Shown here one piece after another: positions 47,826-52,273 of a stretch of DNA of 64,000 nt. Each line of letters begins with the position of its first letter. Position 1 is the stretch's first letter. The DNA is from Brachybacterium ginsengisoli. GTDB lineage: Bacteria; Actinomycetota; Actinomycetes; Actinomycetales; Dermabacteraceae. Both the position numbers and the translations under genes were made by a program. The stretch is from the NCBI RefSeq assembly GCF_002407065.1, contig NZ_CP023564.1:1922001-1986000 (forward strand), written 5' to 3'. The notes beneath the pieces were generated by a model. It searched no databases. It worked only from the letters and a program-made list of their open reading frames with translations, and was not told where the DNA came from.

Positions 47826-48638
47826 TCAGGCGCTGTCGAGCAGCTCGGAGAGCAGATCGACACGATTGCTGATGATACCATCCACGCCCTTGACCAGCAG
47901 ATCCCGCATGGTCGTCGGATCGTCGACGGTCCACACATGCACCTCGCATCCCGCCCGATGAGCGGCGGCGATGTTGGCCTCCGTGACGATCGCCACCCCT
48001 CGGTGGTGCTCGGGGACCTGGAGCGCGCCGTAGGGGGCGAGGATCCGCGAGATCACGGCGTCCGGGGCCTCCACGGCGCGAGCGGCGAGGAAGCGGCCGA
48101 TCGTCCCCCGGGCCGGGCTGCGCACGGCGGTGATGCCGGTGGCCGCGTGGAGAGTCGCGAGGGTCTTCCTCACCACCGCGCCGTCGAACCCGGCCAGGCA
48201 CACCCGGTCCGCGCTGCGGGTGCGGCTGATCGCCGCGACCGCAGGACCGATCGCCGAGGGCGACTTGATGTCGATGTTGATCGGCACGTCCCGGAAGGTC
48301 CCCAGCACGTCCTCGAGCATGGCGAGCGGCTCGTCGCCGGCCAGGCGCACGGCACCGGCCTCGTGGGCGCCGAGCTCGTCGATGCGGCGGGGATCTCCGG
48401 CGATGCGCAGCAGGTCCTCGTCGTGCACGGCCAGCGCGAGTGCGTCGCGGGTGGCGCGGGTGTCGGTCTCGAGCATGTCGGCGCCGGCCCGCAGCGCCGT
48501 CTCGAAGGCGCGCAGGGTGTTCTCCGCGCCGTCCAGCGCGAGTCCCCGGTGGGCGATGCGCCGCGGGCGGGGGCCGGGCAGGAACCGCGAGACCGGACGT
48601 GCGGGGTGGTCAGGGCGTCCGATGGTCGATGAGTGCAT
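47826..48638 (-). CDS. Glycerophosphodiester phosphodiesterase family protein
   Basis: TIM-barrel GDPD that hydrolyses glycerophosphodiesters to glycerol-3-phosphate and an alcohol. Catalytic and metal motifs: IAHRGLALDGAENTLRAF (HR and EN), DMLETDTRATRDALALAVHDEDLLR (ExD, HD) and VHVWTVDDPTTMRDLL near the C-terminus. No signal peptide; cytoplasmic. Length is 270 residues from ATG 48638, which has GAGGAGGAAGAGG immediately upstream. The start lies 29 bases inside the SURF1 gene, so translation is coupled. The longer frame to 48959 is only antisense-free overlap with SURF1 and is rejected. Confidence 0.92.
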   Translation of the reverse strand: MHSSTIGRPDHPARPVSRFLPGPRPRRIAHRGLALDGAENTLRAFETALRAGADMLETDTRATRDALALAVHDEDLLRIAGDPRRIDELGAHEAGAVRLAGDEPLAMLEDVLGTFRDVPINIDIKSPSAIGPAVAAISRTRSADRVCLAGFDGAVVRKTLATLHAATGITAVRSPARGTIGRFLAARAVEAPDAVISRILAPYGALQVPEHHRGVAIVTEANIAAAHRAGCEVHVWTVDDPTTMRDLLVKGVDGIISNRVDLLSELLDSA

Positions 48639-49581
48639 CCTCTTCCTCCTCGTCCTGTCCTCGACGGCGGGCGCGGACCGCGCGGCGGGGACGATGGTGG
48701 TCTGCGGGGCGCTGCGCCGGTCGGCTCGCGGCGGCGGGTGCGCCCTGGTCATGCGGTGCGGGTGCGTCCGCCGGAGTGGACGGCGCCTCGCCGGCCTCCT
48801 GCTCCTCCGCGGCGGCGTCCTGGAGCAGACGGCGGGTGCGGTGGACGAGCGCTGCGGGGAAGAACAGCGCGAAGATCCACCACTGGAAGGAGTAGGACAG
48901 GTGCGGGCCGAGCGAGGTGTCGGGGGAGGGGAGCGCAGCGGGTCGCTCCGGCGCCGCACCGCCGTCGCGCGGCGTCTCCGCGACCAGTTCGCCGTAGGCC
49001 CGGGTGACGAGATCGGGGGAGTCCTGCCCCATGAGCTCCGCCGACTGCGGGGGGTTCACCGAGTGGGTCTGACCCGGCGGCGTTTCGCGGTCGAGCACCA
49101 CCTCGGCGGGACGCAGGCGGGCGGTGACGGTCATCTCGCCCTCCGGAACCGCCGGGGGATCGTGCGGCTGGGAGTCGGACGCGTCGGTGGGCACCCAGCC
49201 GCGCACCACCAGCAGGGTCGTGCCGTCATCGGCATGGAAGGGCACCAGCTGCCAGAAGCCCACGGTGCTCGAGAGCTGCCTGTTGCGCACGTAGAGCACG
49301 CAGTCCTCGGTGGTGCAGTAGCTGCCCTGTACAGAGACCGGGGTCCAGTCGTCCGCCGCAGGCAGAGCCGCCTCCGGGTCGTTCAGCACCTGGTCGAGCG
49401 CGACGGGGGCGGCGTCGTAGTTGGAGTGGACCACGGCCGCCTGGTCACGACGGTTCTCGTAGCGGCCGTACTGCCACATGCCGAGGGCGATGCAGACTGC
49501 GGAGAGCACCAGCACGGCGACCAGTCCCAGCAGGGTGTCGCGGCTGAGCAGGATCCGACGACGGGTGGAGCGAGATGTCAT
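48610..49581 (-). CDS. SURF1 family protein
   Basis: Membrane protein of the SURF1/Shy1 family, linked to cytochrome aa3 oxidase assembly. First membrane helix about 15-36 (LLGLVAVLVLSAVCIALGMW, then QYGRYENR), an extracytoplasmic domain (RNRQLSSTVGFWQLVPF, LLVVRGWVPTD), and a second helix (QWWIFALFFPAALVHRTRR) after about 200 residues. A CTTEDC pair in the external domain could form a disulfide. The C-terminal 70 residues are an Ala/Pro/Arg tail ending in acidic residues. Length is 323 residues. It overlaps the upstream gene (ATGA) and the diesterase gene downstream. Confidence 0.88.
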   Translation of the reverse strand: MTSRSTRRRILLSRDTLLGLVAVLVLSAVCIALGMWQYGRYENRRDQAAVVHSNYDAAPVALDQVLNDPEAALPAADDWTPVSVQGSYCTTEDCVLYVRNRQLSSTVGFWQLVPFHADDGTTLLVVRGWVPTDASDSQPHDPPAVPEGEMTVTARLRPAEVVLDRETPPGQTHSVNPPQSAELMGQDSPDLVTRAYGELVAETPRDGGAAPERPAALPSPDTSLGPHLSYSFQWWIFALFFPAALVHRTRRLLQDAAAEEQEAGEAPSTPADAPAPHDQGAPAAASRPAQRPADHHRPRRAVRARRRGQDEEEEDALIDHRTP

Positions 49582-50096
49582 CCGTGAACCGGCGTGCTCG
49601 CTGTGTCCTCGGCGCCGAGGTCGGCCTGCCCGAGGCTGCCCGCCGCCTCTGAGAGCACACGGGTGAGGTCGTTGATCCCGAAGTCGACGAGCTGGACGAA
49701 CAGGATCGCGGTGGCCGCGGCCACAATGAAGCCCAGCGCCGTGACGCCGATGGTCATGCCGAGGCGAAGGCGGGGGCGGTCCGTGCGCGCGGGAGCGGGC
49801 GGAAAGCCGTAGTCCTCGCCCTGCAGGTGGTTCTCGGCCCACATGCCGGGGTTCAGGACCGCGACGGGGTACTGCTCGACGCGCCGACGGGGGCGGGCTC
49901 CGCTGGCAGGGACGTCCTCGGACGCCTGCAGCGGAGCCGTGCCCCGGTCGGTGCTGCCTCCGGGGAGCCAGAGCCTCCACCCGGCCGGGACCGGGCCCCA
50001 GGCATGCCCGGGGCTGAAGTCCGCCGGCGGGGTCCACCCGTCATGCGGGGGCTCCGGCCAGTTCGGCGGCGGGTTGAAGCGCTGGCCCTGTGTCAC
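49578..50096 (-). CDS. Hypothetical membrane protein with FNPPPNWP N-terminal motif
   Basis: 172 residues. The N-terminus RFNPPPNWPEPPHDGWTPP then HAWGPVPAGWRLWLPGG repeats the Pro/Trp motif that opens the upstream 726-residue protein. A basic linker (ARPRRRVEQYP) follows, then one membrane helix (about 113-138). The C-terminal 35 residues are probably extracytoplasmic and acidic. Function unknown. The Pro/Trp module resembles short N-terminal modules such as DUF2510 that mark many actinobacterial membrane proteins. GTG 50096 overlaps the upstream stop (GTGA), and the end overlaps SURF1, so the three are one operon. Confidence 0.7.
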   Translation of the reverse strand: MTQGQRFNPPPNWPEPPHDGWTPPADFSPGHAWGPVPAGWRLWLPGGSTDRGTAPLQASEDVPASGARPRRRVEQYPVAVLNPGMWAENHLQGEDYGFPPAPARTDRPRLRLGMTIGVTALGFIVAAATAILFVQLVDFGINDLTRVLSEAAGSLGQADLGAEDTASTPVHG

Positions 50097-52273
50097 GCAG
50101 GGACGTCCCAGTTGTAGGTGTCCTGGTAGGTGTCGAACTCGAGGACGTTGCCGCCCGCGCGCTTCACATCGAACAGGATCTGCACGGTGTACTCATCCCC
50201 GGCCTTGAACTGGTAGGGCGCTCCGCCGCCCACGCCGGAGCCGACGAGGCTGTAGGTCTTGTCGGACGGCTCGACCGCGCCGCCGTAGGGCGTCTTCACA
50301 GAGAACTGGAAGGGGTTGAACTCGTAGGTCCCCTCGGTGACCGTGAACTTGGCGGTGACCACGAGGTATTCGCCCTGCTCGGCGTCGTCGACGGTGCCGC
50401 CGTATGAGTTCTTGAGATCCGCGCCCTTGGCGTACTTCATGTCCACGGCCATGGTGCCGGTGCCATCCGTGCCCACGAAGTTGATGGCCTTCGCCGCGGG
50501 ATCGATCGTGGCGAGATCCGTCGGGGTGACGGCTTCCTCGGTCTCCTCCTCGGTGGTCGCCTCCTCCGTCGGGTCCTCCTCGGTGGTCTCCTCGCCGTCG
50601 GTGGTCTGCTCCTCGGTGGCGGTGGTCCCGCCGCCGCCGCCGGCCTCCTCATCACCGCCGCGGTTGAACAGCCAGATGCCGCCCGCGATGAGGACGATCA
50701 GTGCCAGGAGCAGGATGAGGAGGCAGCCCAGCCACCAGAAGCGTGCCAGGAAGCCCTTCTTGGGCGGCTCGCCCGCCCCGGTGGAGGCGGTCCAGCCGGA
50801 GCCGGTGTCCATCCCCGGGGATCCCTGGCCGAAGCCCTGCGCCGGGTAGTCCGAGGCGGATCCCTGACCGGGGTACTCCGGTGCGGAACCCTGGCCATAG
50901 CCCTGATTCGGGGACGCCTGGCCGTAGCCCGGGGTCGGGGAGGCCTGGCCGTAGCCCGGGGCCGGGGAGGCCTGGCCGTAGCCCTGCCCCGCGGGCTCCT
51001 GGCCGTAGCCCTGCGCGGGCGAACCCTGGCCATAGCCCTGATTCGGGGACGCCTGGCCGTAGCCCGGGGTCGGGGAGGCCTGGCCGTAGCCCGGGGCCGA
51101 GGAGGCCTGGCCGTAGCCCTGACCTGCCGCCTCCTGGCCGTAGCCCTGCCCCGCCGACTCCTGGCCATGGACCGGCGCGGAGGACGCCTGCGCGGGATCA
51201 CCGGCTGCCGAGGAGTCCCCGGTGCCGTGAGCCGCTGCAGCACCTGCGGCGACGCCTCCGACAGCGGCCCCGCCGGCGACCGCTGCAGCACCGTGACCGG
51301 CGCCGTCCTGGGTCTGATCCGCCTGCGAGCCTGCAGTCTCAGCACCCTCGGCCGGGACAGCGGACTCGTACGGAGCCGGCTGGGCGAGCCCGGCCTCGAG
51401 ATCCGGTCCCTGGTACTCGGCCGTGTCCGGCGCGCTCGACGAGTTGTCGGGAGCCTCCGACGGAGCGTCGTCGGCAGGGGCGCTCTCGGCAGGGGCGCCT
51501 GCGGCAGGAGCGGTCTCAGCCGCCGGGTCGTCCGACGCGCTCGCGCCAGCAGCACCGGCTGCCGCGCCACCGGCCACAGCACCACCGGCCACCGCACCAC
51601 CGGCCGCTGCCGGGGCGATGCCCTGCTGGGGCGACTCCTCGACGGCGGATCGCCGACCGGAGCCCGCGACATGGGTGGCCACGTCGTCCGAGGACTCGGA
51701 CGCCGGGGCGGGCGCCGAGGCCGGTGCGCCCTCATCCGTGGGAGCTCCGGCGTGACGGCCGTGGCCGGCACCTGTTGCCGCGGAGTCGTCCTGAGATGCC
51801 GGGGAGCCGTAGGGGTTCATCGAGCCGTACTGCCCGACCGGCTGAGGAGCGGAGGTCGACGCCTGATCCTGCGCGACGTCCTCCTGACCGGAGATCTCCT
51901 GACCGTTCGGCTGGTCCGCCGTCACAGGCTGCCCACCCTGCGCGTCACCGCGCGGGCCGGTGGAGACCAGACGGGTTGCGTCGTCCTCGGCGGGCTCGGA
52001 GGCCGGAGCCTGCTCACCGGTCGAGGCGACATGCGTCGCGTCCGCGTCCGCGTCGGCGGCGGGCATCTGATCCGCGGTCGAGGCGACATGGGTGGCGTCG
52101 TCGGCGGGAGCCGAGGCCGCGGCCGGAGCGGCGGGGGCCTGGTCGTCGGCGACCCAGAAGTTCCAGCCGTCCGGGGCAGGGCCCCACGACGGATCCGGCT
52201 GCCAGCCGGGAGGCGGGCTCCAGGTGGTGTCCTCGATGGGCCAGTTCGGCGGCGGGTTGAAGCGGTAAGCCAT
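50093..52273 (-). CDS. Low-complexity membrane protein with GYGQ repeats and C-terminal DUF4352-like domain
   Basis: 726 residues. The N-terminal module is YRFNPPPNWPIEDTTWSPPP with SWGPAPDGWNFWV (1-41). A long disordered region (42-505) follows, with four DDATHVAST-like motifs (near 60, 79, 99, 199), Ala/Gly runs (222-246, 329-349) and ten nine-residue repeats ending GYGQ (372-461). One membrane helix is at about 513-536. An external Thr/Glu linker (550-582) leads to an Ig-like domain resembling DUF4352 (VDDAEQGEYLVVTAKFTVTEG, NPFQFSVKTPYGG). Function unknown. By the positive-inside rule the repeats are cytoplasmic. GGAAGG precedes ATG 52273. It is first in the operon with the 172-residue protein, SURF1 and the diesterase. 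Confidence 0.8.
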   Translation of the reverse strand: MAYRFNPPPNWPIEDTTWSPPPGWQPDPSWGPAPDGWNFWVADDQAPAAPAAASAPADDATHVASTADQMPAADADADATHVASTGEQAPASEPAEDDATRLVSTGPRGDAQGGQPVTADQPNGQEISGQEDVAQDQASTSAPQPVGQYGSMNPYGSPASQDDSAATGAGHGRHAGAPTDEGAPASAPAPASESSDDVATHVAGSGRRSAVEESPQQGIAPAAAGGAVAGGAVAGGAAAGAAGASASDDPAAETAPAAGAPAESAPADDAPSEAPDNSSSAPDTAEYQGPDLEAGLAQPAPYESAVPAEGAETAGSQADQTQDGAGHGAAAVAGGAAVGGVAAGAAAAHGTGDSSAAGDPAQASSAPVHGQESAGQGYGQEAAGQGYGQASSAPGYGQASPTPGYGQASPNQGYGQGSPAQGYGQEPAGQGYGQASPAPGYGQASPTPGYGQASPNQGYGQGSAPEYPGQGSASDYPAQGFGQGSPGMDTGSGWTASTGAGEPPKKGFLARFWWLGCLLILLLALIVLIAGGIWLFNRGGDEEAGGGGGTTATEEQTTDGEETTEEDPTEEATTEEETEEAVTPTDLATIDPAAKAINFVGTDGTGTMAVDMKYAKGADLKNSYGGTVDDAEQGEYLVVTAKFTVTEGTYEFNPFQFSVKTPYGGAVEPSDKTYSLVGSGVGGGAPYQFKAGDEYTVQILFDVKRAGGNVLEFDTYQDTYNWDVPA
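50891..51160 (-). repeat. 27-base tandem repeats encoding GYGQ units (10 copies)
   Basis: Ten 27-base units inside the low-complexity gene, each encoding nine residues ending GYGQ. A higher-order period of 135 bases is visible: about 100 bases from 50886 recur from 51021 with one difference, indicating a recent five-unit duplication. Confidence 0.85.

Follow-up and report, generated by a model that had tools for sequence, protein, structure and literature searches.

Why does a bacterial membrane protein carry a run of FUS-like repeats beside its membrane helix? The protein in question, PW1, is encoded on the minus strand of the window (the whole 64,000-nucleotide stretch of Brachybacterium ginsengisoli DNA that was analyzed) by a gene at 50093-52273, which runs from an ATG at 52273 to a TGA stop at 50093-50095, specifies a whole bitopic membrane protein of 726 residues and has orthologs across the genus. 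A sequence-only reading had described ten nine-residue units ending in GYGQ, likened their [G/S]Y[G/S]Q motifs to those of FUS, and imagined a role for them in membrane-associated condensates. The units are all there and in register, as 10 x 27 bp at exactly 50891-51160 on the minus strand (residues 372-461): ESAGQGYGQ EAAGQGYGQ ASSAPGYGQ ASPTPGYGQ ASPNQGYGQ GSPAQGYGQ EPAGQGYGQ ASPAPGYGQ ASPTPGYGQ ASPNQGYGQ. The FUS-like motif is likewise borne out, with ten [G/S]Y[G/S]Q matches at residues 377-461 in a segment with high shares of Gly (27%), Gln (18%) and Tyr (11%). Tandem Repeats Finder assigns the array a 27-bp period with 10.3 copies as well as a 135-bp period with 2.1 copies at 93% match, indicating that five units were duplicated as one block. 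Chance can be set aside as the origin of the array: GYGQ occurs ten times in the PW1 tail against a maximum of two in 20,000 shuffles, and a pattern search confined tandem GYGQ in the 3.95-Mb genome to this array (nine overlapping matches, every one there). No Pfam or NCBIfam domain covers the repeats.

PW1 opens with a Pro/Trp module, MAYRFNPPPNWP...PPPGWQPDPSWGPAPDGWNFW (residues 1-44; 52142-52273), that is near-invariant among orthologs. It is followed by an acidic, Ala/Pro-rich tail (51161-52141), disordered by its sequence. This tail carries D[DEV]AT[HR][VL]-type motifs, which number one to five in most orthologs, and the conserved sequence TAEYxGPDLEAxLAQxxPYE, and otherwise evolves fast. 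Between the array and the membrane lies a linker (50744-50890) that ends in GEPPKKGFLA, its basic residues on the cytoplasmic side; the stretch adjoining the helix reads PPKKGFLAR. The single membrane helix, RFWWLGCLLILLLALIVLIAGGIWLF (50666-50743, edges approximate), leads into an acidic, Thr/Glu-rich extracytoplasmic linker (50525-50665) and a C-terminal domain of 143 residues (50093-50524). In a charge table of 38 orthologs, basic residues flank the N-terminal side of the helix in 38/38, and the far side is net acidic in nearly all. By the positive-inside rule these charges would place the tail in the cytoplasm, an N-inside topology that we infer from the charge rule only. The disordered, membrane-anchored cytoplasmic region with one helix, as originally proposed, fits this picture in all but its length, which is about 505 residues before the membrane segment and not 460. 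A spurious open reading frame can be rejected, as conservation across the genus extends to the N-terminal module, the membrane helix and the ectodomain; matches of PW1 to SpoIIIAH, SAG1386 and 'New glue' were also discarded, being below cut-off and low-complexity. PW1 is a lineage-specific bitopic envelope protein whose family has no description in Pfam or NCBIfam.

Two genes follow PW1 on the minus strand. PW2 (49578-50096) encodes a second Pro/Trp protein, of 172 residues with one C-terminal membrane helix, and its GTG start overlaps the PW1 stop (GTGA); the ATG of the next gene (48610-49581), a SURF1 family cytochrome oxidase assembly protein (Pfam SURF1 1.7e-37; NCBIfam NF050123), overlaps the PW2 stop (ATGA). 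Because of these overlaps, the three genes are probably translationally coupled, with PW1 heading the trio. Pro/Trp modules and SURF1 do lie near the array, as first noted, except that SURF1 is two genes downstream, behind PW2. In the loci examined PW2 directly follows PW1, and the order PW1-PW2-SURF1 recurs in B. halotolerans and in three divergent genomes of the genus in which all three genes were sought (G007, G014 and G022). Of the trio, PW1 is the least constant: a SURF1 gene beside a Pro/Trp gene was kept in 5/5 searched genomes that lack a strong PW1 match, and G188, from another genus, encodes PW2 and SURF1 without any match to PW1. The 44-residue Pro/Trp module (FNPPPxWPxxxxxWxPPxGWxPDPxWGPxPxGWxxW; copies at 52142-52273 in PW1 and 49959-50096 in PW2) gave no match in a Pfam search and was found in 44/346 sampled genomes of the class, spread over 33/126 genera. 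By eye its carriers seem unrelated, among them long coiled-coil proteins with a conserved C-terminal region, CAAX-protease-like proteins, small multi-helix membrane proteins and an HNH-like protein, and some copies are C-terminal. We suspect an actinobacterial adaptor module that is yet to be described, akin in spirit to DUF2510. Literature searches on Brachybacterium SURF1 and on DUF2510 yielded nothing useful.

The extracytoplasmic domain is predicted to be an Ig-like beta-sandwich (AlphaFold2 mean pLDDT 73.7, from an alignment of only two sequences). The model matched MPT63 (1lmi) in Foldseek at E 8.8e-6, and resembled DUF4352-like extracytoplasmic proteins in VIA-align, with Z of 10.4-9.8 for the top five matches. 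PW1 falls short of the Pfam DUF4352 (PF11611) cut-off, at 15.1 bits vs 25.9, while 5/16 PW1 homologs match this family at E up to 1 (best 2.3e-4). Run against 248 genomes of the order, the ectodomain profile found members of the family only. A sequence profile of the ectodomain found no relative in the PDB and nothing in a comparison with a DUF4352 paralog from the same genome; the predicted MPT63/DUF4352-like fold is a match of structure alone. That paralog (L003:1438-2106) is a single-helix protein whose DUF4352 domain exceeds the Pfam cut-off and which has a PT-type linker after the helix. Another single-helix protein of the genome (L002:1435-2511) has a YGQ-rich N-terminal tail and, again, a PT-type linker after the helix. 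A literature search on tyrosine-rich disordered tails and on DUF4352 in Actinobacteria returned nothing useful.

Strong matches to the membrane and ectodomain part of PW1 occur in 34/38 genomes of the genus, the closest named relative being that of B. halotolerans; two members from other genera have short tails without GYGQ. The ectodomain is absent from G007, G014, G022 and apparently G032 (L107, L106, L108 and L109, respectively), which keep the tail and helix. G014 appears to have suffered a recent internal deletion that left a C-terminal TWDTPA remnant. For G027 (L097), the ortholog is split over overlapping open frames, one of which shows GYGQ units; its frameshifts, real or assembly errors, fall both in the ectodomain and within or after the array.

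Repeat number is variable. Among the 33 intact Brachybacterium orthologs, GYGQ count in the 145 residues nearest the membrane ranges from 0 to 10 (CV 0.70). High and zero counts are dispersed over the tree such that each needs at least four changes, and tails are anywhere from 150 to 530 residues long. Absence of the repeats from close relatives, which the sequence-only reading had named as a sign against its proposal, is found in part: five ectodomain-intact orthologs of the genus (G001, G005, G011, G033 and G036) and other genera of the family lack the array. GYGQ-less relatives mostly carry AYGS, PYGQ or AYGQ in its place, and other repeat types can substitute, such as EAPAYGS in G033 and EPVREPE in the ectodomain-less G022. 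Together with the 135-bp block duplication in PW1 itself, this variability favors the main rival to the reading that we prefer, namely that the tail is a flexible spacer, a long hydrophilic tether from the Pro/Trp module to the membrane, on which the array is a roleless by-product of replication slippage in GC-rich DNA. We regard the plain spacer as unlikely, if a serious contender, since two features of the tyrosines count against it.

The first is their number and position. Over the 145 residues that precede the membrane, the 33 intact orthologs have a median of 10 tyrosines (range 2-14), with a CV of 0.25 that is far below that of GYGQ and only slightly under the Poisson value of 0.31; shared ancestry makes these counts suggestive and not independent. 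Four of the five GYGQ-less orthologs (G001, G011, G033 and G036) retain 8-11 tyrosines. Tyr and Gly are denser in this juxtamembrane segment than in the remaining tail in 31/31, and Asp and Glu are depleted in the segment. The second is the retention of GYGQ while the leads of the units drift. Between adjacent units, lead codons differ at 190/690 first and second positions and GYGQ codons at 63/276 third positions, so the GYGQ units are not mere recent copies of one another; GYGQ codons have zero first- or second-position changes, which is partly true by the definition of a unit. A test anchored on SP, which avoids selecting on GYGQ, was blurred by variation in unit length, and we used instead the slots with GYGQ on both flanks (n=48), of which 42/48 have GYGQ and 47/48 retain the tyrosine. 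Steady tyrosine number and conserved GYGQ, set against drifting leads and third positions, make the tyrosines look selected and the exact repeat look disposable. Three genomes without the ectodomain have also lost their tyrosines or let them decay: G007 and G022 have 1 and 0 in the juxtamembrane segment, and in G014 three motif positions that are usually Tyr are His. This link is a loose one, because G005, with only 2 juxtamembrane tyrosines and a tail of 150 residues, and G096, of another genus and with none, both keep the ectodomain.

We therefore prefer, tentatively and at a little short of even confidence, a reading in which weak, multivalent tyrosine contacts make the tail of this envelope protein a tether or clustering device and the exact repeat is disposable. 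PW1 would be co-translated with PW2 and the cytochrome-oxidase assembly factor SURF1, and would present an Ig-like domain of MPT63/DUF4352 type outside and a long disordered tail inside. About ten spaced, membrane-proximal tyrosines could then act as weak stickers that, through many weak contacts, hold PW1 at the inner membrane face or cluster it there, by self-association or together with partners. The GYGQ array would be the current tyrosine supply in B. ginsengisoli, growing and shrinking by tandem duplication. Any link between PW1 and oxidase assembly is likewise putative.

The condensate role imagined for the array goes further, casting PW1 as a scaffold whose FUS-like repeats drive two-dimensional liquid-liquid phase separation at the membrane, as proposed for Rv1747. 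Motif and array composition are FUS-like, membrane tethering is expected to lower phase-separation thresholds, and Rv1747 offers an actinobacterial precedent in which the cytoplasmic part of a membrane protein phase separates. The rest of PW1 argues otherwise, and we consider such a scaffold improbable. The Q/G/S/Y low-complexity composition lies within the array, 90 of about 505 tail residues, the remainder being acidic and Ala-rich (A 26%) with few tyrosines; the whole tail is 3.4% Tyr, with a net charge per residue of -0.10 (58 D/E vs 8 K/R). FUS phase separation is driven by Tyr-Arg contacts (PMC8847598), and arginine-rich (RGG) partner regions are absent from PW1, whose tail has 8 K+R in 510 residues and almost no arginine. 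We also modeled the segment roughly, as a single chain, by pivot Monte Carlo with approximate CALVADOS-type parameters. Repeat runs gave scaling exponents of 0.556 and 0.515 for PW1, and segments of five Tyr-bearing relatives gave 0.52-0.60. Two FUS-like control polymers came out at 0.44-0.49 and a Tyr-to-Ser control at 0.56; given replicate noise of about 0.04 and the approximate parameters, only the ranking against controls is usable. In this model, the PW1 segment appears weakly sticky, nearer an ideal chain than the FUS-like controls. The original interpretation is supported in part, its condensate element not.

The tail is improbable, too, as a phospho-docking platform, on which Ser/Thr kinases would modify the D[DE]AT[HR][VL] motifs for recognition by FHA-domain proteins and the tyrosine-rich segment would serve as linker only. 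In favor of it, the motif recurs in most orthologs, the genome has six above-cut-off FHA matches and a phosphorylated juxtamembrane segment of PknB binds FhaA (PMC12077195). Against it, this reading leaves tyrosine conservation unexplained, and a strict D[DE]AT[HQR][VL] DNA pattern matches the genome twice, both times in the PW1 gene, so that it is not evidently a kinase motif shared with other proteins. A generic Ser/Thr-kinase motif was rejected for DDATxx on the same grounds.

Returning to the tyrosine tether, its most ambitious extension would make the juxtamembrane segment a selected sticker array that forms two-dimensional clusters or condensates on the inner membrane face and links the extracytoplasmic Ig domain with oxidase assembly or with other processes of the envelope; turnover of the repeats would buffer the number of stickers. 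We think this quite a long shot; if true, bacteria would have in PW1 a membrane-bound equivalent of the stickers and spacers of FUS-type proteins. More than 30 orthologs within one genus, with 0 to 10 repeats and a near-constant tyrosine number, make PW1 a test case in which one could ask directly whether bacteria select on sticker number in disordered tails, as argued for FUS, and whether that number affects membrane clustering. As things stand, PW1 is one more Tyr/Gly/Gln-rich disordered tail on an actinobacterial membrane protein.

Such tails are not unusual as a kind. Spaced GYGQ pairs occur in 22/396 sampled genomes of the phylum (12/237 genera), in FhaA (PF12401/PF00498), BaxI_1 (Bax-inhibitor-like), RDD, TerD-AIM24, TM2 and DUF4190/DUF2510 proteins. 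Like PW1, these carriers have tandem or near-tandem GYGQ in a low-complexity segment that adjoins a folded or membrane domain, and PW1 belongs with them by these features; unlike PW1, they have unrelated folded domains and mostly irregular spacing, and none combines a Pro/Trp module with an Ig-like ectodomain. Ten regular nine-residue units place PW1 at the long end of the GYGQ arrays observed. FhaA orthologs of other actinobacteria (L120, L121, L122 and L124; L120 and L122 confirmed by profile) contain very long, low-complexity Tyr/Gly/Gln-rich regions with GYGQ directly before the FHA domain, and are better-connected candidates for tyrosine-driven clustering than PW1.

The extracytoplasmic Ig-fold domains of MPT63 (1lmi), YjhA (3cfu), CD630_09570 (5bxg) and YxkC (9a4z) have a beta-sandwich like the one predicted across the entire PW1 ectodomain, at 8-15% identity; PW1 differs in being bitopic, its domain joined through the helix to a long tail in the cytoplasm. 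The FHA/linker module of Mycobacterium tuberculosis Rv1747 phase separates and is thought to cluster the ABC transporter (PMC9312465). Rv1747 and PW1 are both actinobacterial membrane proteins with a disordered cytoplasmic region, but they are not homologous, and Rv1747 is an ABC transporter that needs FHA domains and phosphorylation. FUS is not homologous to PW1 either: PW1 is membrane-anchored and has neither RGG/arginine regions nor an RNA-binding domain, and its array consists of regular nine-residue tandem units with Pro and Ala in acidic surroundings. Besides motif and array composition, the two appear to share a mode of evolution. In FUS, according to the account of Dasmeh and Wagner (2021) given in PMC8847598, tyrosines are kept while the rest evolves, and in PW1, too, tyrosine number is kept amid sequence turnover.
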